Assembly: GCF_023715605.1 (NCBI RefSeq)
Contig: NZ_JAMBOL010000004.1
Span: forward strand, 124,001-188,000
Length of the DNA: 64,000 nucleotides
From: Halalkalibacter oceani
Lineage (GTDB): Bacteria > Bacillota > Bacilli > Bacillales > Bacillaceae_D
Direction: 5' to 3'
The position numbers were made by a program, and so were the translations under genes. The first letter of the stretch is position 1. Each line of letters begins with the position of its first letter. Below, in pieces: positions 50,934 through 64,000 of this stretch. Under the pieces are notes generated by a model. The model was not told the origin of the DNA and searched no databases. It saw only the letters and a program-made list of their open reading frames with translations.

Positions 50934-50977
50934 GGTGCGAACCTCCCAGGGATTTTATGTGTGCTTGGGGTTCGCAC
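50934..50977. repeat. Gene/leader boundary hairpin, copy B
   Basis: GGTGCGAACC pairs with GGTTCGCAC. It begins 2 bp beyond the cas2 stop codon and forms the outer end of the array 2 leader. Same element as copies A and C; it likely terminates the cas operon. Confidence 0.8.
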
Positions 50978-50979
50978 TG

Positions 50980-51270
50980 TTAGAAAATAAGCGGATCTTC
51001 TAAATGTAAAGATGGCTTGGCTCCAATGTGTTCGACTTTTGTTTTATAGTTGTTTCCAAGTCGGTAAATGCGCAGGCTGTCTTTTTCTTCATCAATTAAG
51101 CTAGTAAGCTCTAATTTCAATGTCGTTAGTTGAGCAGCGTCAATGATGCACTCAAAAACAGAGTTCTGCACACGTTGACCATAGTTTTGGCAGGCTTTGG
51201 CTACTTTTCGCAGTCTTTTTGTTCCTCCTGCACTCGATGTTTGGACATCATAGGTAATTAACACGAGCAT
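50980..51270 (-). CDS. cas2: CRISPR-associated endonuclease Cas2, type I-C
   Basis: 96 aa from ATG 51270 (MLVLITYDVQTSSAGG), with AGGTG 6 nt upstream; the longer reading overlaps cas1 and has no RBS. Ferredoxin-like fold with the catalytic-type Asp8 in LITYDV, GQRVQNSVFECIID and a C-terminal LRIYRLG. Cas2 dimers bridge two Cas1 dimers in the integrase. It follows cas1 by 8 bp. Confidence 0.96.
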   Translation of the reverse strand: MLVLITYDVQTSSAGGTKRLRKVAKACQNYGQRVQNSVFECIIDAAQLTTLKLELTSLIDEEKDSLRIYRLGNNYKTKVEHIGAKPSLHLEDPLIF

Positions 51271-51278
51271 GTTTTCAC

Positions 51279-52310
51279 CTACTTCCACATGAATGGGGGA
51301 TATTCGTCCAAGTCTCCACGAAGGAAACGCGCTAATAGCAATGCTTGTGCATAAGGAACAAGCCCCCATGATAATTTTTCTCCTAGATAAGGATGTGTAA
51401 TCTTATCCTGCTTTTTCGTCTGCCATGCTTTGATAAACGATCGCCTTGCTTCATCGGTCATCAAAACTGCTCCGTTTTCTTTTTGATAAAAGTCTTCTGC
51501 GGTCACTTCTTTGCGGTTAATAAGCGCCAAAACAAACCGGTCAGCATAAACCCCTCTCAGTTCCTCCATCAGGTCTAAAGCGAGTGACGCCCGGCCGGGC
51601 CGATCTTGATGCATAAAGCCGACATAAGCATCAAGTCCCACCGTTTCAAGAGCAGCTGCTGAATCGTTTGCAAGCAATGTATAAGCAAAAGACAGCATCG
51701 CATTCACGTTGTCTTTCGGCGGCCTTCTTGAGCGTCCACGAAAGGCAAAGCTTTCTTTTTGCTGGAGAATCATCTGATCAAACACTTTATTGTAGTGAAT
51801 TGCCGCTTGTCCTTCCCATCCTCGCAAGCTTTCGAGACTGTCACAGCTGCGGACTTCCTGCAACATAGCAGTCAACAGCTGCGATACAGCTTTAAATTGA
51901 TCAATATCTACACGAAGCGGGTGGTCTCTCGTCATCCGTTCAAGCATCCATTTATGGTTGTAAATTTTGCCGATGATAAAATTCCGGGCAATTTTTGTTG
52001 ATTCCTGCTCACTTTCAGAAAGGCGATATTGTGTCTTTCTGAGGACGACATTACCGCGGCTCTCTCCGACCACCCTAGCTAAAAAACGACCACTTTTCGT
52101 GAGAAACGTAATCGAAATGTTTCGTTCCGCGCAGTACCCCATTAATGCCGGACTCGCTCCGGTATAGCCGAAGCTGACAATCGCCTCAAAATTGTGGAGG
52201 GGAAGCCTGCCGAGCTTTTCCTGCTCTCTGATTAACACAATATTATCTCCATCAAGAGATAAATATGTATCCGGCTGCGTGACATATAACGTATTCAACA
52301 GCTTCTTCAC
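51279..52310 (-). CDS. cas1: CRISPR-associated endonuclease Cas1, type I-C
   Basis: 343 aa, GTG start behind AGGGGAGG that overlaps the cas4 stop by 4 nt. N-terminal beta domain, then the metal-binding residues Glu166 (RGWEGQAA), His234 (GFMHQDRPGR) and the acidic cluster near 246-250 (LDLMEE). Length and sequence style match Cas1c. It integrates new spacers at the leader end of the arrays. Confidence 0.97.
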   Translation of the reverse strand: MKKLLNTLYVTQPDTYLSLDGDNIVLIREQEKLGRLPLHNFEAIVSFGYTGASPALMGYCAERNISITFLTKSGRFLARVVGESRGNVVLRKTQYRLSESEQESTKIARNFIIGKIYNHKWMLERMTRDHPLRVDIDQFKAVSQLLTAMLQEVRSCDSLESLRGWEGQAAIHYNKVFDQMILQQKESFAFRGRSRRPPKDNVNAMLSFAYTLLANDSAAALETVGLDAYVGFMHQDRPGRASLALDLMEELRGVYADRFVLALINRKEVTAEDFYQKENGAVLMTDEARRSFIKAWQTKKQDKITHPYLGEKLSWGLVPYAQALLLARFLRGDLDEYPPFMWK

Positions 52311-52963
52311 TCGTCGAGCCTCCCCTCGATATAGCTTTTCACAGAGCGTTTATTCATCATCTTTGGCAAACAAATATGCTGTAAGGAGCAGCTTTTGCAA
52401 TGGGGGCCTGTTTTCACTTTAGGCGTATGGCGCTTGTCATAATAATGACGCATTTCTTCGGCCATCTTCGCTACTTTTTCTCTTAAACTGTCGGTAATCG
52501 GCACTTCCATGCGATGCTTGATTTCATTATAAAATAAGTATCCCTTTTCAATGTGGCAAACAAGCATTTCCTCCAAACAGATCGCCTGTGCAGTCAATTG
52601 AACAATATCTTCGTCACCTTTTTTCGGTTTGCCTCGTTTGTATTCGACAGGGACTGCCTGATAGGTTCCGCTTATGCCTGACAACTCTACACCATCAGGG
52701 CTCTCAATAAATTCAACGACATCACAAATACCGCTTATTTGCAGTTTCCTCGATTGAATTGGCATCGCCCGAACGGTCAGCTTAGTTCCACGCTTTTCTT
52801 TTATGAACGGTTGATCCGCTTTCCGATGCAAATGCTGGCCCTCAATCGTTCGGACGTTTTCTTCCCACTGCTGTTCGATGTGAATCAGGGCCCACTGCCG
52901 CTTACAAAATTGGAAATGCTGCAGCCCCGACAACATCAAATAGTCTTCTTCCTTACTGGCCAT
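52307..52963 (-). CDS. cas4: CRISPR-associated exonuclease Cas4
   Basis: 218 aa from ATG 52963, overlapping cas7 by 11 nt. RecB-like nuclease: LSGLQHFQFCKRQWALIH gives the first Fe-S cysteine, DVVEFIE and VPVEYKRGKPK the nuclease motifs, and CKSCSLQHICLP the remaining cysteines. In type I-C Cas4 trims prespacers and ensures PAM-directed integration with Cas1-Cas2. Confidence 0.96.
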   Translation of the reverse strand: MASKEEDYLMLSGLQHFQFCKRQWALIHIEQQWEENVRTIEGQHLHRKADQPFIKEKRGTKLTVRAMPIQSRKLQISGICDVVEFIESPDGVELSGISGTYQAVPVEYKRGKPKKGDEDIVQLTAQAICLEEMLVCHIEKGYLFYNEIKHRMEVPITDSLREKVAKMAEEMRHYYDKRHTPKVKTGPHCKSCSLQHICLPKMMNKRSVKSYIEGRLDE

Positions 52964-53804
52964 CAAGAATCTCTACTTCTAGTCCGTCTAATGGGTAAAG
53001 TTCAACAGCATAATCCTCAAAGCTTTTTGGTTCATCTGTTTTTGCTTTCACCTCTAAGGCCCGGTGCACTTTGGCAGATGAATATTGTCCGAGCTTGGAC
53101 GAGTGCTCCCACCAGTACACTTTATGCACTTCCATGCTTCCGTCCGGCCGAGCGGAGGAGCTGTCATTTTCAAAAAGCGTGATTAACGCCTGCTTGATTT
53201 TTTCTGCATCCTCATTGGTAAAACCGGTTTTCTCCGCTAATTGGGTGTTAATACTACCTTTGAAAAGATAGACACCGAAATCAACCCGGTGTTTCATCCC
53301 CATCGTGTCGGAGCTTCGTTTATCATTTGTGACAGAATTCACACTTTTTGTAATCTGAGTACTAACAATATCAATTGGGTCAATACTCGTCGCGGTATGA
53401 ATCGATACAGGCCCGCGGACACCGACAGATAAGTTCGAGCCTTTGAATGCGAATACTTGTCCAAAACTGCGGACATCCATCCATTCTTGACAAGCAATGG
53501 CAGCAAATTCATCAGCGGAAGCATTTTTCGCTTTCAGCATCTTCTCCAATTCCGGATGAGCATCTGCTCGCTCCCGTAGACTTTTATATGCATCTATTTT
53601 TTTATCATCGGATTGAACAAAAATAGATTCACCCATGTCTAACAAACGATTGCGAATTTTTCGTTTGAGGGCAACGTCAGAAATTTCCCCATATCCGTCA
53701 TAGTTTTGTCGTGGTCGATTTCCGTTAAGTGGATCCCCATTTGGATTCGCCTTTGAAACAGACAGGATAACAGCAAAGTCAATTTTATGGTCTAATGTAG
53801 TCAT
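52953..53804 (-). CDS. cas7: Cascade backbone protein Cas7 (Csd2), type I-C
   Basis: 283 aa. DFAVILSVSKANPNGDPLNGNRPRQNYDGYGEISDVALKRKIRNRL is the Csd2 N terminus; KGSNLSVGVRGPVSIHTATSIDPIDIVSTQITKSVN and MGMKHRVDFGVYLFKG follow. Copies of this RAMP protein line the crRNA. RBS GGAGG lies within the end of cas8c; the two genes overlap by 4 nt (ATGA). Confidence 0.97.
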   Translation of the reverse strand: MTTLDHKIDFAVILSVSKANPNGDPLNGNRPRQNYDGYGEISDVALKRKIRNRLLDMGESIFVQSDDKKIDAYKSLRERADAHPELEKMLKAKNASADEFAAIACQEWMDVRSFGQVFAFKGSNLSVGVRGPVSIHTATSIDPIDIVSTQITKSVNSVTNDKRSSDTMGMKHRVDFGVYLFKGSINTQLAEKTGFTNEDAEKIKQALITLFENDSSSARPDGSMEVHKVYWWEHSSKLGQYSSAKVHRALEVKAKTDEPKSFEDYAVELYPLDGLEVEILDGQ

Positions 53805-55684
53805 TCGTTTGTTACCTCCTCTTTTTTCTTATAAAGCTCACGACGCTGACTGTAAAAGCCGAGCAAATATTTTTCTGTCAATGGGGCATTATTAAAATCT
53901 TCTATCTGGAATTGATCACTAATTTCATCAATTAATTTTGATAAATACGTTGCTTTTGTCCCAAGCCTTGCTTGATATGGCTGCAGACTTTCCTGAATCG
54001 TTTTCCATGTCCGCGCCGGATTTTTGGCATAAGAGTTCATATAACGGATCGCATTTGTAGCTCTCGTTTCGTCCTTTCCCAGAGCCCCTCTTTCCAACAC
54101 ATCGGCTACCGCTAATAAACGCCCAAATAAATAACTGCGGTCTGTTGAGCTTTGATCAAGTGACACATCGCATTCCTCCTTCTTATCAACAAGCATTTTT
54201 CTAATTAAGGCACATGTAATGCTTACTGTTTTTTCCCATTCCCAGCGCTCCATTGACACTGGATTCGAGGCCCGCTGAAACGCACTTCTTACTATATCTT
54301 TAGGAATTTGGCGCTTATCAACAATGCAGGGAAGCATTCGTTCCATCAATCCCTTTACGACCTTTTCACTGGCCCGAGGTCCATAAGCAGCAAAAGCGAT
54401 ATCCTTCGTCGCCGGCGCGCCGTAAAAGGAAACAAATTCGTTTTCTTCCCTTCGATATCGATGCTCCCACGCACACGATTCATGCCACTCTTCCAAACGA
54501 TGTAAATAGAGCTCTTTATTCATATTGCGATAGTAAAGAACAGCCATTCTTCCAGTCGTGGCTGAATCAAGCACAAGAATGTTCACTTCCGGCTGATAGT
54601 GTAAATCATTTTTATAACCACTGATGGCTTTTTTTACTTCTCCTGCAAAAATTTGTCCGGTGTCTGGCTCTCTCTCGAATTCCCTGTTAGCATGCTTCAT
54701 AATGTCAAACCCATCTTCATTCGGATTGGGGACCGGGCTGTCATCATGACTCCAAACAAGAAAGACACGATCATCAATCGTTTTACCTTGGCGATGAATC
54801 AACCATTTTAAAGCGTTATGAGCCTTTTGCGAAACCTCATAGCTGATTCCGACCGCTTCCTGACTTGTTTTAAAGCGCCCACGGAAAGTAAATCCTGTGC
54901 TATCATTAGCTGAGATTAATTTCGCTTTGTCTGCCGCATGGCGAATTTTATTCGCATGACGCTCTGTGCCCGGACGTCTCTCTCCTGTCACATAACAAAT
55001 ATCATCCTGACCTAGCTTGTCATTGTAAAAAGCGATAAATGATTTGTACATTTCTTGATCTTTCCAGACGTCATCAAATGATTCAGGATGAAAAACATTG
55101 AATCGTACAAACGCACTAAATTGATCAGTAGTCCCACTGGAGAAAATAGTTGGCTTTTCGCCTAGCGTCTCTTCATATTTTTTGTCCCACTTCTCAATCA
55201 ATTGTTCGTTCTCATCAAGCCAAAGCACTCCTTCACTTACCAGGTCTTCTATCAACCGTCCTTTTTTCAAGTAGGTATAGATGCACTTCACCTTTTCTGT
55301 CGCATACGGCGACTCTGCCCATTCCTTTAAATTTTTTATATACGTGTCAAAAGGGACTTCGTCTTGGTTTTTGATCTTCCCTCCATATTTCACATAATCA
55401 CCAGCGACATAACTCAATTTGTCATGTAACGGATACGGAGCCACTTTCGAGCCTGACCGACTGGCGGCTTCCTCTGTACATGGGATTAACGTACTTTGTT
55501 TCTTTAACGGCCTCGCGCTTGAAAAATCACCATCTTCATCAATCGTCACTTCAATATGGGCATTTTGCGTCGTATGCGAAATCGGCAACAGCGTATATTC
55601 CCGATCCTCGCCCTTTATCACCGTTTTTCCTACTTGCTCAAGATTTTCTTCGTACGTTTTATACAACTGCAACAACCAGCTCAT
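53801..55684 (-). CDS. cas8c: Cascade large subunit Cas8c (Csd1), type I-C
   Basis: 627 aa from ATG 55684 (MSWLLQLYKTYEENLEQVGK), with AGGGGG 8 nt upstream; a GTG three codons earlier would overlap cas5. The Csd1 signatures are CYVTGERRPGTERHANKIRHAADKAKLISANDSTGFTFRGRF and HRQGKTIDDRVFLVWSHD. Cas8c recognises the PAM. Type I-C cas8c genes often contain an internal start for the small subunit Cas11c; the C-terminal 120 residues are helical and would suit it, but no start was assigned. Confidence 0.97.
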   Translation of the reverse strand: MSWLLQLYKTYEENLEQVGKTVIKGEDREYTLLPISHTTQNAHIEVTIDEDGDFSSARPLKKQSTLIPCTEEAASRSGSKVAPYPLHDKLSYVAGDYVKYGGKIKNQDEVPFDTYIKNLKEWAESPYATEKVKCIYTYLKKGRLIEDLVSEGVLWLDENEQLIEKWDKKYEETLGEKPTIFSSGTTDQFSAFVRFNVFHPESFDDVWKDQEMYKSFIAFYNDKLGQDDICYVTGERRPGTERHANKIRHAADKAKLISANDSTGFTFRGRFKTSQEAVGISYEVSQKAHNALKWLIHRQGKTIDDRVFLVWSHDDSPVPNPNEDGFDIMKHANREFEREPDTGQIFAGEVKKAISGYKNDLHYQPEVNILVLDSATTGRMAVLYYRNMNKELYLHRLEEWHESCAWEHRYRREENEFVSFYGAPATKDIAFAAYGPRASEKVVKGLMERMLPCIVDKRQIPKDIVRSAFQRASNPVSMERWEWEKTVSITCALIRKMLVDKKEECDVSLDQSSTDRSYLFGRLLAVADVLERGALGKDETRATNAIRYMNSYAKNPARTWKTIQESLQPYQARLGTKATYLSKLIDEISDQFQIEDFNNAPLTEKYLLGFYSQRRELYKKKEEVTNE

Positions 55685-55685
55685 C

Positions 55686-56402
55686 TCATTCACCCCCTAA
55701 ATCATTCAGCAGTTGTTCAGCCGTTTGAATACTGTCTGGATTAAATTCCTTTGGTTCCATCTCTTTAATCGGGCGAACCATCGTGCATTCTTCCGGTCTC
55801 GGGAAACGAAGATAACCATTCTCCATCACTGCAGACCACAATCGTACATCAAGCTGATTCTGTCCCGTCTCGTCGGGGTAATTGAATCCATGAACCATCG
55901 TTCCTAAATGATACTGCCCTTGCTTATCATAAAAGCCTTCTCCACTGCCAAACTCGCACGGAGCGACATACCCTTGGCATTCTCTCGCTCCAAGGAAAAT
56001 ATCTCTGCGCCCTCCAGCCTCTAAAGAACGCTTAAGAATGCTGTAATGCTTTCCTTCATTCCGGTCGAACTCCAAGTCGGGGCGGTTCAGGTTGAATTCG
56101 AAATGGGCCCGTATTTGGTAGTGTACATCCTTCAAGTACGTATAATGGGCAAGTGTATTTCCTCCGCCGTATTCAATCGGCCGCACTCCTTTTGACTCCA
56201 TTTGAATCGGTTTCATCACCCGAAGCTCATCAATAACAAACATGATTGTTGGCTTCCAGTAAACACTTTCGACTATTCCTTTAAGCGCTTGGTAGGTAGG
56301 CACACTATAAGAGAGCTTCTCACCGCCAATTTTCGTCAGCGGATCGGTGAACAGCGCATAATCACCAAACAGCTCAAATTCGATTTCATTTTTGTATTTC
56401 AT
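55686..56402 (-). CDS. cas5: CRISPR endoribonuclease Cas5c (Cas5d), type I-C
   Basis: 238 aa. In type I-C, Cas5 replaces Cas6 and cuts the repeat. The catalytic residues known from the Bacillus halodurans protein (Tyr46, Lys116, His117) correspond to Tyr48, Lys118 and His119 here (VYWKPT and EGKHYS). N terminus with [22 protein letters not shown] terminus [20 protein letters not shown]. The strong SD AAAGGAGGTGA is partly folded into a small hairpin (56412-56429). It is the first gene of the cas5-cas2 operon, about 210 nt after a near-consensus promoter. Confidence 0.96.
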
Positions 56403-56411
56403 AGATTGGAT

Positions 56412-56429
56412 TCACCTCCTTTCAGGTGA
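56412..56429 (-). promoter_or_regulatory. Hairpin occluding the cas5 ribosome binding site
   Basis: TCACCT/AGGTGA stem of 6 bp with loop GAAAGG on the minus strand. The SD sequence AAAGGAGGTGA is divided between loop and stem. Weak but well placed; it could moderate cas5 translation. Confidence 0.35.
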
Positions 56430-56459
56430 TCAATGGATTTATAAAAATTCTTATTGATC

Positions 56460-56576
56460 TTAAGACTTATTTTTTAAAATCCAAACATCTTGCCTTAATT
56501 GGCTAACTTCCTCTTGAAGCTTTTTTAGTTCTTGTTCAAGCATTTTTATCTTTCTCTTAAGATGAGAAATAACCAA
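56460..56576 (-). CDS. Candidate small coiled-coil peptide in the cas5 leader
   Basis: 38 codons if TTG 56576 starts it (MVISHLKRKIKMLEQELK...). The frame remains open further upstream to an ATG at 56663, but that ATG lies above the promoter and cannot be translated from it. AAGGAGG precedes the reading frame, though it is only 2-4 nt from the TTG and 8 nt from an ATT codon. The sequence KIKMLEQELKKLQEEVSQL shows leucine-zipper heptads. It resembles no cas protein. It could be a leader peptide, a small regulator or a CreT-like toxin kept silent by Cascade. Confidence 0.3.
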   Translation of the reverse strand: MVISHLKRKIKMLEQELKKLQEEVSQLRQDVWILKNKS

Positions 56577-56619
56577 TCCCTCCTTATAAGAAAAGTCAGA
56601 AATTTTTAAACTTTTTAAA

Positions 56620-56648
56620 ATCATAGCTAATTTATAAAGTATTGTCAA
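56620..56648 (-). promoter_or_regulatory. Near-consensus sigma-A promoter of cas5-cas8c-cas7-cas4-cas1-cas2
   Basis: On the minus strand TTGACA (56648-56643), 17 bp, TATGAT (56625-56620). It is one of the best promoters in the window. Its -35 lies inside the protospacer that the crRNA-like RNA encoded 100 bp away would recognise. No terminator was seen between it and cas5. Confidence 0.85.
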
Positions 56649-56650
56649 TC

Positions 56651-56698
56651 CTTCAATCATCAAAATGGATGAAGATTCATCTATTTTGATGATTGAAG
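56651..56698. promoter_or_regulatory. Inverted Cascade target pair between divergent promoters
   Basis: Two 23-bp arms, CTTCAATCATCAAAATGGAT... and its reverse complement with one mismatch, separated by GA. Each arm reads outward as TTC followed by ATCCATTTTGA (minus strand, 11/11 match to the crRNA-like RNA) or ATCTATTTTGA (plus strand, 10/11). TTC is a known type I-C PAM. The left target covers the cas5 promoter -35 and the right one extends to the promoter of the RNA. A conventional dimeric regulator could also bind such a palindrome. Confidence 0.7.
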
Positions 56699-56708
56699 TT
56701 ATGAGTAG

Positions 56709-56737
56709 CTGACTTTAGAAATTAAAAATGATATACT
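56709..56737 (+). promoter_or_regulatory. Promoter of the crRNA-like RNA
   Basis: CTGACT (56709-56714), 17 bp, and the extended -10 TGATATACT (56729-56737). The predicted start is near 56744-56745, the first base of the repeat-like sequence. Confidence 0.8.
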
Positions 56738-56744
56738 TAGTTTC

Positions 56745-56820
56745 ATCGCTTATTTAAAGCGCGGATTGAAATATCCATTTTGAGGGTTGGAAACCTATCT
56801 AGTGACGTAGATAGGTTTTT
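56745..56820 (+). ncRNA. crRNA-like regulatory RNA (Cor/CreA type candidate)
   Basis: Predicted 76-nt transcript antisense in direction to the cas genes. 56745-56772 mimics the array repeat: ATCGC at the left, a hairpin CGCTT-ATTTA-AAGCG, and the 3' handle CGGATTGAAAT, which differs from the real 11-nt handle TGGATTGAAAT in one base. 56773 onwards is a spacer-like segment starting ATCCATTTTGAGGGTTGG, which targets the cas5 promoter beside a TTC PAM. The transcript ends at the 11-bp hairpin with T run at 56791-56820. It should be cut by Cas5c and loaded into Cascade. With only partial pairing (16 of the first 19 positions), the complex should bind without Cas3 cleavage and so repress. Confidence 0.8.
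56791..56820 (+). terminator. Terminator of the crRNA-like RNA, also behind cas3
   Basis: AAACCTATCTA/TAGATAGGTTT, a perfect 11-bp stem with loop GTGACG, followed by TT after a T-rich 3' arm. It lies 3 bp from the cas3 stop and would also end cas3 transcripts, separating cas3 from the cas5 operon. Confidence 0.85.
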
Positions 56821-56823
56821 AAT

Positions 56824-59235
56824 TCAAAACGACGCAAACTCCATTTCTCCTTCTCCTTGCAAGTCAACGCCATAGTCCTTGCTATACCAGCCTTCCTTCA
56901 ATTCGTAAATCATTCCATCGAAATGGGCAACGATAGCTTTCTCGTTCTGTAACTGATTAAATTCGTTCGAATAAAGATTGACGGTATACTGCTGGGCCTT
57001 CTTCAATAATCCCGTACTATCGTCAATCCAGTCATCGCTGTTTAATTGCGCGATAACCTCTCTTCCTTCTCCAAAAGGAACAATCACTGAAATCGTATTT
57101 TGTTCAATCACCCGAAAATATTCTGCAGCCGTTTTGTTACTTCCATTTAGACATAGAGGGAAGATGGTCCCTTGTTTCTTTTGATAATACGTGACGTAGC
57201 TATTTTCTCGATGCAATGCCATCAACAGCTTTGTCATTTCTTTATCCACTTCTTTTACGTAATAATTTAAGTTCGCATCCATCACCCGGTAATAGTTAAG
57301 AAAATATGCACGCATCGCTTCTTGCGAAAGTAAATTTCCTTCATATTCATCTGGTTTCTTTTTAAACCGTGCGAGAATATTGGTGGTAATCCCTTTACCA
57401 ACCTCTATCTCCTTCAACTTCGATAAGTTCTCCTCCGCATGATCAATAACGTAGACATTACCTAGTGGATCTTTCCCGTGTCGGTTGCACCTGCCTGCGG
57501 CTTGAGCGATGGAGTCAAGACCGGCGAGAGAGCGAATAACACGTTTAAAGCTGATGTCCACACCGGCTTCAATTAATTGAGTCGTAACACAAATGAATGG
57601 AATTTCCTTCTCAAGCATGCCTTTAATTTTATCAAGCTGCTCTTTCCGGTGTGCCGCGCACATTGAGGTACTTAAATGAAAGACGGGTACCGTACTGTCT
57701 TTAAGTAACTGAAAAAGTCTTTTTACAGCCGATTTTGTGTTCAAAATAACAAGGACATTTCTCCATTCCTCAATCTCTTCGTTTATCCAACCGGCCAACT
57801 CTTCGGATCCAATCGGCTTTGCACTTTTATCAACGATGTCAACCCGTTTGAACGCCGCTGTTACCTCGCCAAGATTTCGCACGATCTCGCCATCACGCTC
57901 TTTCAAAAGGCTGTGCTTTACCTTTTCAAGCGTTGGCTGTGTTGCCGTACATAAGAGGATACTGCAATGTGCAAAATTCTTAAGAAAATTAAGCGCTTCG
58001 TTAAAAAGAGAGACACACTTTGTCGGCACCTTCTGGACTTCATCAAAAATAATGACCGAATGGCTTACGTTATGGAGACGCCTTGTGTTGCGATTCCCCT
58101 TTGCATAAAACACATTTAGGAATTGGACAAGGGTCGTAAAAATAAGAGGACGATCCCAATTGTCACGGGCAAGCTTCAGCTTTTCTTTTTTTGTAAGGAA
58201 ACCGTCATCTGGTTCATCGCCGAGCTCCTCTTCTTTTACTTCCTCCTCGATGACATTTGAATGATGTTCTAAAACACGGTCATCATCTTCTAAAATATCG
58301 CGAACCTCTTGTGCATTCTGCTCAATAATCGTTGTAAAGGGAACGATATAAATAATGCGCTGCTTGTCAAATTGTTGGGCATGTTTTAACGCGTAGCGCA
58401 GACTGGCAAGCGTCTTCCCCCCTCCAGTCGGAATTGATAATGTATAGATGCCGGATGGCTTCTCCGCAAATTGTTCACACTGTTCAGACATCTCAGAGCG
58501 TAATACATTAATTGGTTTATCGCCATCCTCTTTTTTTAAGCTGGCTAGATGGTGTAGTAATTTTTTATGATAAGCTTCGAATAATTGCTTGTATTTAATC
58601 GGCTCCTCTTCCTTAGCTTCAGTCTCAAAGAGTCGCGTGTTCGTCCGGTCCGCATCAATTAAACAACTGAAAATAAATTTTGTCAGGAAAAAGCTTTGGG
58701 TAGGGTCCATGATCATAAATTGCTTTAATTCATCAAGCGCAATAGCGACATATTGTTTGAAGTCTGTTTCTGTGATCATGTCTGTAAAAAAACGTTCAAC
58801 CGCCAACTCGTATTCGGGCAGGTTTTTTTCTTTTATTCGCTTTAAAAAGTCTGATTCGATTTTTGGAGAAATATAATCTTGGAGGTTTGCATGATGTGAA
58901 ATAATGGCATTACCGACAATTTCAGCAAGCAATTTCTCGTGTGGTGTATTCCTTTCATTATGATAAAACTCAAACAGCAACCGGCCACCTGCCGTAGCAT
59001 GATCAACCTCCCCGCGCTTGAACTCAGCTTTATCGGGCTCCCAAACAGCCTGATAAAGGTATCGTTGAAACCGATCACTATATTTCCCTAAATCATGAAG
59101 CATTCCAGCAAGGCCGGCTACATGCGCTAACCCAAGCTTCGCGCCGAAGCTCTCGCACAACTTCCTAACACCAAGTAAATGATCCCGTAGCAACTGCTCT
59201 GCTTTGTCCCTCTCCCGAACATGCGCAATATACAT
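56824..59235 (-). CDS. cas3: CRISPR-associated helicase-nuclease Cas3, type I-C
   Basis: 803 aa. N-terminal HD nuclease: His47-Asp48 in MLHDLGKYSD, His79 in VDHATAG and His114-His115 in ISHHANL. The SF2 helicase follows, with Walker A IPTGGGKTLAS near 268-278, DEVQ box in VIIFDEVQKVP near 405, and motif VI-like AQAAGRCNRHG. A C-terminal domain completes it. Cas3 degrades DNA recruited by target-bound Cascade. RBS AGGAGG. A terminator behind it and a new promoter for cas5 uncouple its expression from the effector genes. Confidence 0.97.
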   Translation of the reverse strand: MYIAHVRERDKAEQLLRDHLLGVRKLCESFGAKLGLAHVAGLAGMLHDLGKYSDRFQRYLYQAVWEPDKAEFKRGEVDHATAGGRLLFEFYHNERNTPHEKLLAEIVGNAIISHHANLQDYISPKIESDFLKRIKEKNLPEYELAVERFFTDMITETDFKQYVAIALDELKQFMIMDPTQSFFLTKFIFSCLIDADRTNTRLFETEAKEEEPIKYKQLFEAYHKKLLHHLASLKKEDGDKPINVLRSEMSEQCEQFAEKPSGIYTLSIPTGGGKTLASLRYALKHAQQFDKQRIIYIVPFTTIIEQNAQEVRDILEDDDRVLEHHSNVIEEEVKEEELGDEPDDGFLTKKEKLKLARDNWDRPLIFTTLVQFLNVFYAKGNRNTRRLHNVSHSVIIFDEVQKVPTKCVSLFNEALNFLKNFAHCSILLCTATQPTLEKVKHSLLKERDGEIVRNLGEVTAAFKRVDIVDKSAKPIGSEELAGWINEEIEEWRNVLVILNTKSAVKRLFQLLKDSTVPVFHLSTSMCAAHRKEQLDKIKGMLEKEIPFICVTTQLIEAGVDISFKRVIRSLAGLDSIAQAAGRCNRHGKDPLGNVYVIDHAEENLSKLKEIEVGKGITTNILARFKKKPDEYEGNLLSQEAMRAYFLNYYRVMDANLNYYVKEVDKEMTKLLMALHRENSYVTYYQKKQGTIFPLCLNGSNKTAAEYFRVIEQNTISVIVPFGEGREVIAQLNSDDWIDDSTGLLKKAQQYTVNLYSNEFNQLQNEKAIVAHFDGMIYELKEGWYSKDYGVDLQGEGEMEFASF

Positions 59236-59545
59236 GACAGCCTCCTACTCCTATTACTTATTAAGAATATTTTACCATATATTTTTTCCTAAGACATCAA
59301 AAATTAGATAATATTCTATCTTTTTCTATTCTTTTCCCCATATCAAAAGACCTGTCTTTCACTAAAACCTCTACCATCAAGGAAAGTGATAGAAAACAAA
59401 ATCGCTAAAATCCCTTATTTCAAGGTAAAAACAGCATACCGAGCGCAATGAATAAATTAGGTTGACAAATAAGATTACAAATGTAATATTTAATGGCGTA
59501 CCTGCTTTTCAGAGCTACAAACCATTCGAAAAAGGAGAGCTGAAA
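59236..59545. other. Divergent upstream region of cas3 and the beta-lactamase
   Basis: AT-rich, no gene. It carries the beta-lactamase promoter and operator (59462-59489). For cas3 a weak TAAAAT lies about 35 bp before the ATG, without a good -35. No copy of the Cascade target ATCCATTTTGA was found here. Confidence 0.5.
59462..59489 (+). promoter_or_regulatory. Beta-lactamase promoter with BlaI-like dyad
   Basis: TTGACA (59462-59467) and TAATAT (59484-59489) with 16 bp. Between them ATTACA-AA-TGTAAT (59474-59487) resembles BlaI/MecI operators (TACA-N2-TGTA). No blaI or blaR1 gene lies in the window. Confidence 0.5.
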
Positions 59546-60454
59546 ATGAAAATGACAAAAATAGCAACGGTGATCGGGATAGGAGCTTTATGCTTGTTTG
59601 GATGTTCGCAGAACAATGAGCAAGCAGCTCCGAGCCAGCCGAAGCCTGAGAAATCCGAAAGTTCGATGGAAGATATTTTTACTCAGTTCGAAGAAGAGTA
59701 TGAGGCCCGCCTTGGCATCTATGCATTAGATACGGCTACAGGAGAGACCGTGGCCTATCGGTCGGAGGAACGTTTTATTTACGCTTCTGCCCATAAACCG
59801 CTTGCAGTCGGCGTCCTCCTCCAGCAAAAATCGATTGAGGAATTGGATGAACTGATTACATACTCACCTGATGATTTAGTAAACTACAATCCAATTACTG
59901 AAGATCATGTCGAGTCCGGGATGACCTTAAAAGAGCTGAGCGATGCTTCCATTCGCTACAGTGATAACACCGCCGCCAATTTAATTTTTCATGAAATCGG
60001 CGGACCAGAAGGCTTTAAGGAAGGACTTCGCGCGGTCGGGGATCATGTAACCGAGCCGGAAAATATTGAGCCAGAACTAAATCATGTAGAACCAGGTGAA
60101 ACACGAGATACAAGCACACCAGAAGCATTAGCGACAAGCTTACAGGAATTCGCCCTCGGCGATGCCCTCCCCGCCGAGAAACAAGATCTGCTCATCGACT
60201 GGCTCAAGCGAAACACAACCGGCGATGCCCTCATCCGCGCAGGCGTGCCAGAGGGCTGGGAAATCGGCGACAAAACCGGAGCCGGCGCTTACGGCACCCG
60301 AAATGACATCGCCATCATCTGGCCACCCGACCAAGAGCCAATCATCCTTGCGATACTTTCCAGTAAAGACGAACAAGACGCGGCATACGATGACGAGTTA
60401 ATCGCCAGAGCGACTGAGGAAGTGATGAAACTACTTATTAAGACGGATTATTAG
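59546..60454 (+). CDS. Class A beta-lactamase, lipoprotein form
   Basis: 302 aa from ATG 59546, with AAGGAGAG 7 nt upstream. Signal peptide with lipobox LFGC (Cys20). Class A motifs in order: S81-A-H-K84 (Ser70-x-x-Lys), S139-D-N141, E175-P-E-L-N179 (Glu166 loop) and K243-T-G245 with GDKTGAGAYG. All catalytic residues are present, so penicillinase activity is likely; the SAHK variant of the usual STFK is unusual and the pattern looks intrinsic to the chromosome and not recently acquired. It stands alone, divergent from cas3. Confidence 0.9.
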   Translation: MKMTKIATVIGIGALCLFGCSQNNEQAAPSQPKPEKSESSMEDIFTQFEEEYEARLGIYALDTATGETVAYRSEERFIYASAHKPLAVGVLLQQKSIEELDELITYSPDDLVNYNPITEDHVESGMTLKELSDASIRYSDNTAANLIFHEIGGPEGFKEGLRAVGDHVTEPENIEPELNHVEPGETRDTSTPEALATSLQEFALGDALPAEKQDLLIDWLKRNTTGDALIRAGVPEGWEIGDKTGAGAYGTRNDIAIIWPPDQEPIILAILSSKDEQDAAYDDELIARATEEVMKLLIKTDY

Positions 60455-60599
60455 TACTCAAGGGAAAAGCGATCTCATAAATGAGAGAAAAGTCATGTAT
60501 GACTATGAATCTTGCATGACTTTTTCTTAATCTTGGATAGCTAAACTAGAAAGGCCTTGATGATGCACCTTACCTCTATCCTGTTCTTACATTCTAAAG

Positions 60600-60703
60600 T
60601 ATTGCAAATCGACGCACTCACTTGGAGTGCGACGCTTCTTTTAATTTCTCCTGCGCAATTTCCTCTACATTATTTCAATCCACGCACTCACTTGGAGAGC
60701 GGG
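60600..60703 (-). CRISPR. Decayed CRISPR array 3
   Basis: Two recognisable repeats: 60600-60632 (GACGCACTCACTTGGAGTGC core, altered ends) and 60672-60703 (ATTTCAATCCACGCACTCAC, then TTGGAGAGCGGG). They are separated by about 39 nt. Orientation equals array 2. The loop sequence differs from arrays 1, 2 and 4. The stem of the second is broken, so the array is probably inactive. Confidence 0.75.
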
Positions 60704-63802: not shown

Positions 63803-64000
63803 ATTTCAATTTACCCCTTACGTGGAGTCCGACTTGATCCGAAACAGCTCACGCCGATCATGAGCCGCATTTCAAATCCACGCACTCATATAGAGTGCGA
63901 TTTTTATATACCATTATTACACAGGATAGTCAGAATTTCAATCCACGCATTCATATAGAATGCGATCTCGCGAAACTACAAGGCTTCGGCACTCTTACCG
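63803..64000 (-). CRISPR. Distal end of CRISPR array 4, cut by the window edge
   Basis: Three repeats in array 2 orientation: a degenerate one at 63803-63833, one at 63869-63901 (one extra A), and one at 63935-63966. Spacers of 35 and 33 nt; 34 nt of possible spacer run to the edge. The loop is TATAT. In the third repeat the stem changes from GCACTC/GAGTGC to GCATTC/GAATGC, which keeps pairing. The degenerate repeat at the left indicates that the leader lies to the right, outside the window. Confidence 0.85.

Follow-up and report, generated by a model that had tools for sequence, protein, structure and literature searches.

The type I-C cas locus and its surroundings

The window, by which we mean the whole stretch of 64,000 nucleotides that was analysed, carries a type I-C cas locus on its minus strand. 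A gap of 421 nt separates cas3 (56824..59235; NCBIfam TIGR01587/TIGR01596) from cas5 (55686..56402; NCBIfam TIGR01876), which encodes Cas5c and is the first cas gene of an operon that is putatively repressed. The remainder of this operon spans 50980..55693 on the same strand and comprises, according to NCBIfam models, cas8c (53801-55693), cas7 (52953-53804), cas4 (52307-52966), cas1 (51279-52310) and cas2 (50980-51369). Beyond cas2, a CRISPR array runs from about 50800 down past 50027. Cas5c is described in the available text of PMC10651486 as the crRNA-processing nuclease of type I-C. Other repeat-related sequences were also seen in the window, namely degenerate repeats at 60594-60703, the beginning of a further array, whose repeat differs slightly, at 63862-63966, and two leader-like copies of 47 nt at 50934 and 60823 that are 89% alike. 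Upstream of cas3 there is a gene at 59462-60454, which we take to resemble a class A beta-lactamase lipoprotein.

A crRNA-like element in the cas3-cas5 gap

On the plus strand of the gap, antisense to the minus-strand cas operon, lies a predicted crRNA-like RNA. An earlier note on this DNA had described a plus-strand promoter with an extended -10 at this place, and the promoter-like sequence is indeed present at 56709..56737 (pattern scan, 9/12), where CTGACT (56709-56714) is followed after 17 nt by TATACT (56732-56737), with TG before the -10. It leads into a type I-C repeat mimic (56747..56772, plus strand), recognised from its sequence, its fold and its relatives, in which the hairpin arms CGCTT (56747-56751) and AAGCG (56757-56761) precede an 11-nt handle, CGGATTGAAAT, at 56762-56772. 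Comparison with the array repeats upheld the note's claim that this handle is one base away from the handle of the array, TGGATTGAAAT; GCGYGGATTGAAAT has 111 matches in the genome, and among the matches listed the C variant occurs in the mimic alone. The mimic is followed by the 18-nt guide ATCCATTTTGAGGGTTGG (56773..56790, plus strand), which matches its target at 15/18 positions. A terminator-like hairpin, AACCTATCTA/TAGATAGGTT followed by T's (56792..56820, plus strand), found by folding and with a stem spanning 56792-56817, replaces a second repeat. Folding of the RNA from 56744 to 56824 gave -26.7 kcal/mol (z -4.9), and the pattern scanner for terminators listed none at the hairpin of 56792-56820. 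A canonical CRISPR array has at least two repeats and a full-length spacer; here there is one mimic, and the hairpin begins after 18 nt. An Rfam scan of the window gave no match. As in CreR RNAs, a repeat-like sequence lies outside the array and is linked to the cas genes.

The guide target, its mirror site and the two predicted promoters

The target of the guide was found on the minus strand at 56670-56654, preceded by TTC (56673-56671, read as GAA at 56671-56673 on the plus strand), so that the whole feature covers 56654..56673. The guide matches it at positions 1-11, 13, 15-17 and 19 and is mismatched at 12, 14 and 18, which reproduces exactly what the earlier note had reported. Two controls were applied to this match. 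First, none of 3000 dinucleotide shuffles of the window gap produced a TTC site with at least 13/14 core matches. Second, the genome was scanned with the guide pattern, leaving positions 6, 12 and 14 free and allowing at most two mismatches; the only exact site was the target, the only site with one mismatch was a mirror copy of it, and the single site with two mismatches lacked TTC. The guide thus has no further good site in the whole genome beyond the target and the mirror copy.

The target lies upstream of the -35 of a promoter-like sequence facing cas5 (56620..56648, minus strand), which agrees with the consensus at 11/12 positions; TTGACA (56648-56643) is followed after 17 nt by TATGAT (56625-56620), as the note had stated. 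The claim that the target overlaps this -35 stands for the footprint of a full-length Cascade alone. The -35 begins at target position 23, 22 nt after position 1, and the 17-nt match itself stops 5 nt short of the hexamer. The -35 of the RNA lies 44 nt away in the opposite direction. Taken by themselves, the promoter matches are at chance level (2 found, 1.8 expected). The guide shows partial complementarity to a cas promoter site with a PAM, the promoters being pattern calls.

The mirror copy (TTC plus 17 nt; 56676..56695, plus strand) exists because the target is one arm of a 23-nt inverted repeat (96%) with 2 nt between its arms. It occupies 56679-56695 behind TTC at 56676-56678, flanks the RNA's own promoter and matches the guide at 14/18 positions, with a mismatch at seed position 4. 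The inverted similarity extends over 113 nt and covers both promoters (74% identity, E 3e-13), and therefore each of the divergent promoters has a guide site beside it. Through the mirror site, the guide RNA could possibly control its own promoter.

The RNA cannot pair with the cas mRNA in the window, because it runs in the same direction as that mRNA. Antisense pairing with the cas mRNA, which was considered as a candidate mechanism, is accordingly excluded for the window site, where only the template strand of the DNA is complementary to the guide.

Distribution of the mimic among relatives

A DNA search with 56600-56840 in 13 genomes of the genus, our own included, returned the window only. 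We therefore give here the relatives gathered through a search with Cas5c, in which matches were found in 48/397 genomes of the order, 6/41 of the family, 39/398 of the class and 20/40 of the genus that includes the Paenibacillus oralis contig; a search of GTDB genome contigs gave 34 loci. Altogether 138 loci with both cas3 and cas5, three of which are the window's own region, were reduced to 122 distinct gaps by counting gaps that share their last 150 nt and their length once, as the two genome collections overlap. Four loci were dropped before counting, two without cas3 (L061, L085), one without cas3 upstream (L118) and one without cas5 in the stretch (L121).

With handle patterns that were set after the first hits had been seen, an antisense mimic was identified in 58 of the 70 distinct gaps that reach 120 nt, which leaves 12/70 long gaps without a mimic; the 52 gaps below this length have none. 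Named species with the mimic are, among others, Halalkalibacterium halodurans, Amphibacillus sediminis, Evansella caseinilytica, Paenibacillus oralis, Oceanobacillus jeddahense, Metabacillus iocasae and Heyndrickxia ginsengihumi. At least five base pairs next to the handle were found in 40/58 mimics, compared with 1136/5800 random places in the same gaps, and five of the 58 had no stem pairs according to the script. Among 29 pairs of mimic arms, some show double changes (CGTTA/TAACG, CACTT/AAGTG) and some are doubtful and rich in G-T pairs. Of 52 elements examined, 40 had a hairpin after the handle, which begins 16-19 nt downstream in 26 of them; in many elements the hairpin therefore limits the guide to about three six-base units.

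A solitary repeat mimic, in many cases downstream of a predicted promoter, is also what would be expected of an RNA anti-CRISPR (Racr) or another decoy that titrates Cas5c and Cas7, and RacrIC1 acts on type I-C according to the part of PMC10651486 available to us. However, the elements lie inside the cas operons of many lineages, and the pairing between guide and target that is kept after the handle would be needless for a decoy. Searches of a plasmid collection with 56400-56900 and of a phage collection with 56600-56840 gave no match, so that neither mark of a Racr, carriage on a phage or plasmid and lack of guide function, was found in these data. We consider this explanation highly improbable.

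The guide-target pairing is conserved and spares positions 6 and 12

For each of the 58 mimics, the best match of the 17 guide bases was sought elsewhere in the gap, on either strand and with no PAM required. The best site was preceded by TTC in 53/58 cases, compared with 26/1740 shuffled gaps, and it combined TTC with at least 13/17 matches in 52/58, compared with 8/1740. Regardless of the flank, at least 13/17 matches were reached in 54/58 (52 with TTC, L130 with TTT and L115 with TAA), a figure that is by itself weaker than it appears, given that 309/1740 shuffled gaps reach the same score without a PAM. The AT-rich, TAA-flanked best site of L115 is probably a chance match; when TTC is required, this locus has a site with 12/14 core matches. 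No convincing guide site was found in the gap for four of the 58 mimics (L008, L011, L079, L112). The conservation of the handle and of the seed-target pairing, on which the earlier note had made its reading depend, is thereby borne out, and the pairing is conserved across species, as it is in CreR.

The matches are distributed very unevenly along the guide. Among the 54 loci whose best site reaches 13 matches or more, positions 1-5 are matched in all 54, position 6 in 9, positions 7-8 in 54, and positions 9, 10 and 11 in 51, 52 and 53; position 12 is matched in 20, positions 13, 14 and 15 in 53, 51 and 53, position 16 in 46 and position 17 in 29. Positions 18-24, counted in the first 35 loci, are matched in 12, 16, 13, 10, 6, 5 and 14. 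The guides themselves differ between loci, and 16 are clearly distinct (at least 6 pairwise differences over 17 positions), each of which fits its own target. With one representative per distinct guide, position 6 is matched in 2/16 and position 12 in 3/16, whereas every other position from 1 to 16 is matched in 14-16/16. When guides were swapped between loci that are at most 9/17 alike, 0/730 combinations reached 12/14 core positions. At least 12/14 core matches were found in 35 of the 38 real loci available at that stage and in 19/7600 shuffled gaps.

In type I systems, every sixth base of the guide is flipped out and the target is not read there. We know of no other mechanism that would spare exactly positions 6 and 12, and we read the pile-up of mismatches at these two positions as the mark of a Cascade R-loop. 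The window taken alone does not display the full kink pattern, because its guide pairs with the target at position 6 and fails to do so at position 14; of the mismatches listed in the earlier note, 12 and 18 fit the kink rule and 14 does not.

Two further explanations are affected by this pattern. One is a protein-repressor operator, in which the inverted repeat centred between the window promoters would bind a dimer and the likeness to an RNA would be a coincidence or the result of a past duplication. Such an operator would need to change together with the guide in 16 versions and yet spare positions 6 and 12, which makes it a very improbable alternative. The other is a relic, that is, a single repeat-spacer unit that has decayed and no longer has a function. 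Judged by eye, all that is left in some long gaps is a terminator (L050, L076) or, in L065 and L087, a degraded copy, as this explanation would predict. Nevertheless, positions 1-5, 7 and 8 are matched in 54/54 loci while positions 6 and 12 drift, a contrast that requires selection, and we regard a relic as extremely improbable.

The target lies on the cas-sense strand in 49/54 loci, including the window, so in all of these the RNA likewise has the wrong sense to pair with the cas mRNA. For the remaining five loci (L115, L116, L120, L122, L145), the opposite strand holds the best site, which in three of them lies 9-11 nt before cas5. In 23 of the 45 loci scored, the best cas5-facing -35 has its start 14-23 nt downstream of target position 1; in 28 of these 45, the start of the best -35 of the RNA is 4-14 nt upstream of that position. 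Both are consensus calls of limited worth that are near the chance level.

Putative mini-genes between the target and cas5

The distance from target to cas5 divides the 49 cas-sense loci. It is below 110 nt in 28 of them and below 190 nt in two more, and these loci, with room for little but the operon, look like plain CreR. The leader is longer in the other 19, the window among them. A Shine-Dalgarno sequence with an ORF of at least 20 codons downstream of the target was present in 11 of the 19 long leaders and in 72/950 mononucleotide shuffles; the 11 include the 140-aa gene of L018 and an ORF in L092 that lies behind an inserted gene, presumably transposase-like. Two further loci (L009, L086) have a mini-ORF with a weaker start signal, and in L068 the spacing is wider. 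The peptides of L004, L007, L086, L091 and L130 share the pattern ILKxIV[ED][IV][IL][KE], and a stem-loop with z below -2.6 follows the mini-ORF in 9 of the 12 loci folded. Tandem rare codons follow the start in two archaeal CreTs; within the first six codons of 11 loci, two consecutive AGA or ATA codons were not found.

The mini-ORF of the window (56460..56576, minus strand), which lies between the putatively repressed promoter and cas5, has 38 codons and a TTG start. AAGGAGGG stands just upstream of it at a short, poor spacing, the stem-loop that follows is not significant (z -0.77), and an NCBIfam scan of the longer frame 56460-56663 gave no hit. With its unusual start and no significant stem-loop, it is a poor example of the mini-gene class.

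These observations bear on a rival reading, according to which the guide of the long gaps is a CreA-type antitoxin that mainly restrains a toxic mini-gene before cas5, with repression of the cas genes as a by-product. The excess of mini-ORFs over the shuffles, the stem-loops behind them and the related peptides of five loci all speak for it, and the layout equals that of the I-F CreTA as given in the portion of PMC10097628 at hand. On the other hand, 30 of the 49 targets on the cas-sense strand are less than 190 nt away from cas5, most of these too near for a mini-gene, the window's own mini-ORF fits poorly, and toxicity is putative. In addition, the codon differences over 21 aligned codons of the mini-ORFs (synonymous to nonsynonymous 4/3, 6/2 and 3/3) are a weak sign of selection. 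We consider this reading a serious possibility, somewhat short of an even chance.

Guide sites and possible cargo outside the cas5 leader

The region upstream of cas3 was scanned in 23 of the loci without a gap mimic, 19 of which offered 1500 nt; the flanks were shorter in L089 and L090 (one genome; about 590 and 815 nt) and in L032 and L077 (about 320 and 180 nt). A mimic and a TTC site with 14/14 and 13/14 core matches were found in L029 and L119, respectively. In L026 and L036, a handle resembling that of the mimic is present in antisense but has no TTC site, and no site of at least 11 was found in the remaining loci of the 23. In L029, an Oscillospiraceae (Clostridia) contig, the mimic lies about 860-915 nt upstream of cas3; its TTC site is mismatched at 6, 12 and 17, a tRNA-like stretch was noticed nearby by eye, and no evident gene lies downstream of the guide site. 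A separate observation is the isolated full repeat of L151 (genome G000, contig C48:39004-39017), which lies outside every array among the matches listed.

L119 belongs to another genus, in which a mimic lies before cas3 in 5/22 genomes (L119, L146-L150). The guide there matches 15-16/17 positions at a site before a gene for a hydrophobic protein of 50-56 aa, apart from cas3, and the gene is followed by a terminator-like hairpin. Three of these sites have TTC as their PAM and two have CTC; three lie on the gene-sense strand and two on the opposite one, and position 6 is mismatched in 4/5. Read by eye, the protein appears to span the membrane; a Pfam scan of one member gave nothing above the cut-off. 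Pairs of these ORFs have pS of 0.33-0.42 and pN of 0.17-0.21 in three cases, and the pair L149/L150 shows 0 synonymous and 5 nonsynonymous differences, so that these values, like those of the mini-ORFs, weakly support selection on the small ORFs. The gene is a candidate for a toxin repressed by type I-C Cascade, and CreTA-like modules are likely in this genus; the guides that face it in five genomes also favour the reading of the RNA as a CreA-type antitoxin. A loss of the antitoxin paired with a loss of the toxin in two genomes was considered and rejected, since both ORFs are open for 50 aa and their targets are CTC-flanked. About 700-800 nt upstream of cas3 in L119, some hundred bases from the mimic, there is a short ORF that we take to be like Fst-type type I toxins.

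Larger genes were seen near guide sites in two gaps. In L018, the 140-aa gene (675-1095 in sense coordinates), which has a weak match to nucleoside deoxyribosyltransferases, follows two TTC guide sites. In L116, an ORF with DUF4062 runs from 251, and the best TTC site, at 154-171, lies 80 nt before it on the other strand (sense coordinates). A wider reading of these data is that type I-C Cascade runs an RNA-guided regulon, in which a guide of three six-base units, capped by the terminator, would give a short, non-cutting Cascade. Bound between the divergent promoters, this complex would repress the cas operon together with the guide RNA and a rapidly changing slot for a cargo of small toxins; the cargo would comprise the 24-39-aa peptides before cas5, the 50-56-aa membrane protein, the deoxyribosyltransferase-like gene of L018 and perhaps the DUF4062 gene of L116. 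We offer this wider reading, as a whole, tentatively, with roughly one chance in three in mind. If it is true, loss or inhibition of Cascade would raise the Cas proteins and a toxin together, with CreR and CreTA joined in one promoter.

A probable type I-C CreR and its proposed mechanism

Taken together, the element is very probably a type I-C CreR, that is, a crRNA-like RNA with one repeat and a terminator end that autorepresses the cas5 operon through Cascade, and a CreTA-like offshoot is likely in the long-gap loci. In the long-gap class to which the window belongs, the output may be the mini-gene as well as the cas genes.

The course of events that we propose, from the sequences and by analogy with other subtypes, is as follows. 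The RNA would be transcribed divergently from the cas5 operon and would stop at its own terminator. Cas5c would cut it at the mimic hairpin and leave the 11-nt handle; the handle is conserved, and in most mimics the arms can pair into a stem. Cascade loaded with this RNA would form an R-loop with the 16-17-nt guide at the TTC site between the divergent promoters, a step that is strongly supported by the conserved pairing, the PAM and the mismatches at positions 6 and 12. The bound complex would stop RNA polymerase at the promoter of cas5-cas8c-cas7-cas4-cas1-cas2 and, via the mirror site, might block the RNA's own promoter as well; cas3, upstream of the element, lies outside the repressed promoter. 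Pairing would end at about 17 nt, where the guide meets the terminator hairpin, and because it ends there no full R-loop that licenses Cas3 would form and the chromosome would remain uncut. Short guides yield smaller Cascades in other subtypes, and binding of a short Cascade without Cas3 is suggested here by analogy with them. When Cascade is scarce, occupied by other crRNAs or blocked by an anti-CRISPR (Acr) protein, repression would drop and new Cascade would be made, as the CreRs of other subtypes lead one to expect.

To our knowledge, type I-C is a common subtype and little is known about the control of its cas genes. If the proposed mechanism is true, many Bacilli use the type I-C Cas complex to repress its own production, and this would account for a low cas expression that is raised when an anti-CRISPR blocks Cascade. 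The same arrangement with differing guides in dozens of related bacteria looks like a thermostat combined with a sensor of phage counter-attack. Furthermore, the natural guides would serve as an evolutionary map of the positions that are read by type I-C Cascade during binding without cleavage (1-5, 7-11 and 13-16 but neither 6 nor 12). With this map, R-loop length and Cas3 licensing become testable, and a native tool for non-cutting repression suggests itself. Such tests are within reach, since a copy of the element is carried by Halalkalibacterium halodurans, a species of type I-C biochemistry (e.g., PMC6519985).

Comparison with known systems

A computational survey of standalone repeats reportedly found that many of them match cas promoters in type I systems. 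A literature search by title and start of abstract returned no type I-C case of CreR, CreTA, a crRNA-like RNA or autorepression, and an earlier mention is possible. In the accessible text of PMC13131331, CreR is reported for I-B, I-E and V-A. PMC12737573 reports it, in its available part, in 'Type I and Type V-A' with I-C unnamed, and the whole word I-C is absent from the text of this review that we searched. As far as these sources and PMC12948488 describe it, CreR resembles the present element in being a crRNA-like RNA beside the cas genes with a partial match to a cas promoter; the Cascade-dependent autorepression and the relief by Acr described there are expected here by analogy. Unlike the CreRs of I-B, I-E and V-A in these descriptions, the window element belongs to type I-C with predicted processing by Cas5c, it has a single repeat, its guide is capped at about 17-18 nt by a terminator hairpin, it lies antisense in the cas3-cas5 gap, and in the window it has a mirror target beside the RNA's own promoter.

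RacrIC1, too, mimics a type I-C repeat and has a transcript of its own, as is predicted for our element. In the portion of PMC10651486 available, however, it is prophage-borne beside an anti-CRISPR gene and inhibits type I-C targeting, and that portion does not mention guide-target pairing. The one-repeat CreA of the Haloarcula hispanica I-B system, as presented in the available text of PMC8501985, shares with our element the single repeat, the spacer-like bases, the transcription terminator and partial pairing at a promoter, and TTC is also the PAM of that system; it differs in being archaeal and in repressing a rare-codon RNA toxin, not the cas operon. The same text gives a Shine-Dalgarno sequence, a mini-ORF and a stem-loop as the parts of archaeal CreTs. 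The I-F CreTA of Acinetobacter, in the part of PMC10097628 at hand, has a gap of about 400 bp after cas3, a divergent guide RNA, a PAM-flanked partial target and, downstream of the target, a Shine-Dalgarno sequence with a mini-ORF. The long-gap loci have the gap, the predicted divergent RNA and the partial target in common with it, and 11 of the 19 long leaders have such a sequence and ORF as well. The I-F CreTA has two repeats and a 33-bp ORF, whereas the I-C loci have one repeat, and their mini-ORFs, which would encode putative toxins, comprise 24-39 codons, vary between lineages and stand before cas5.
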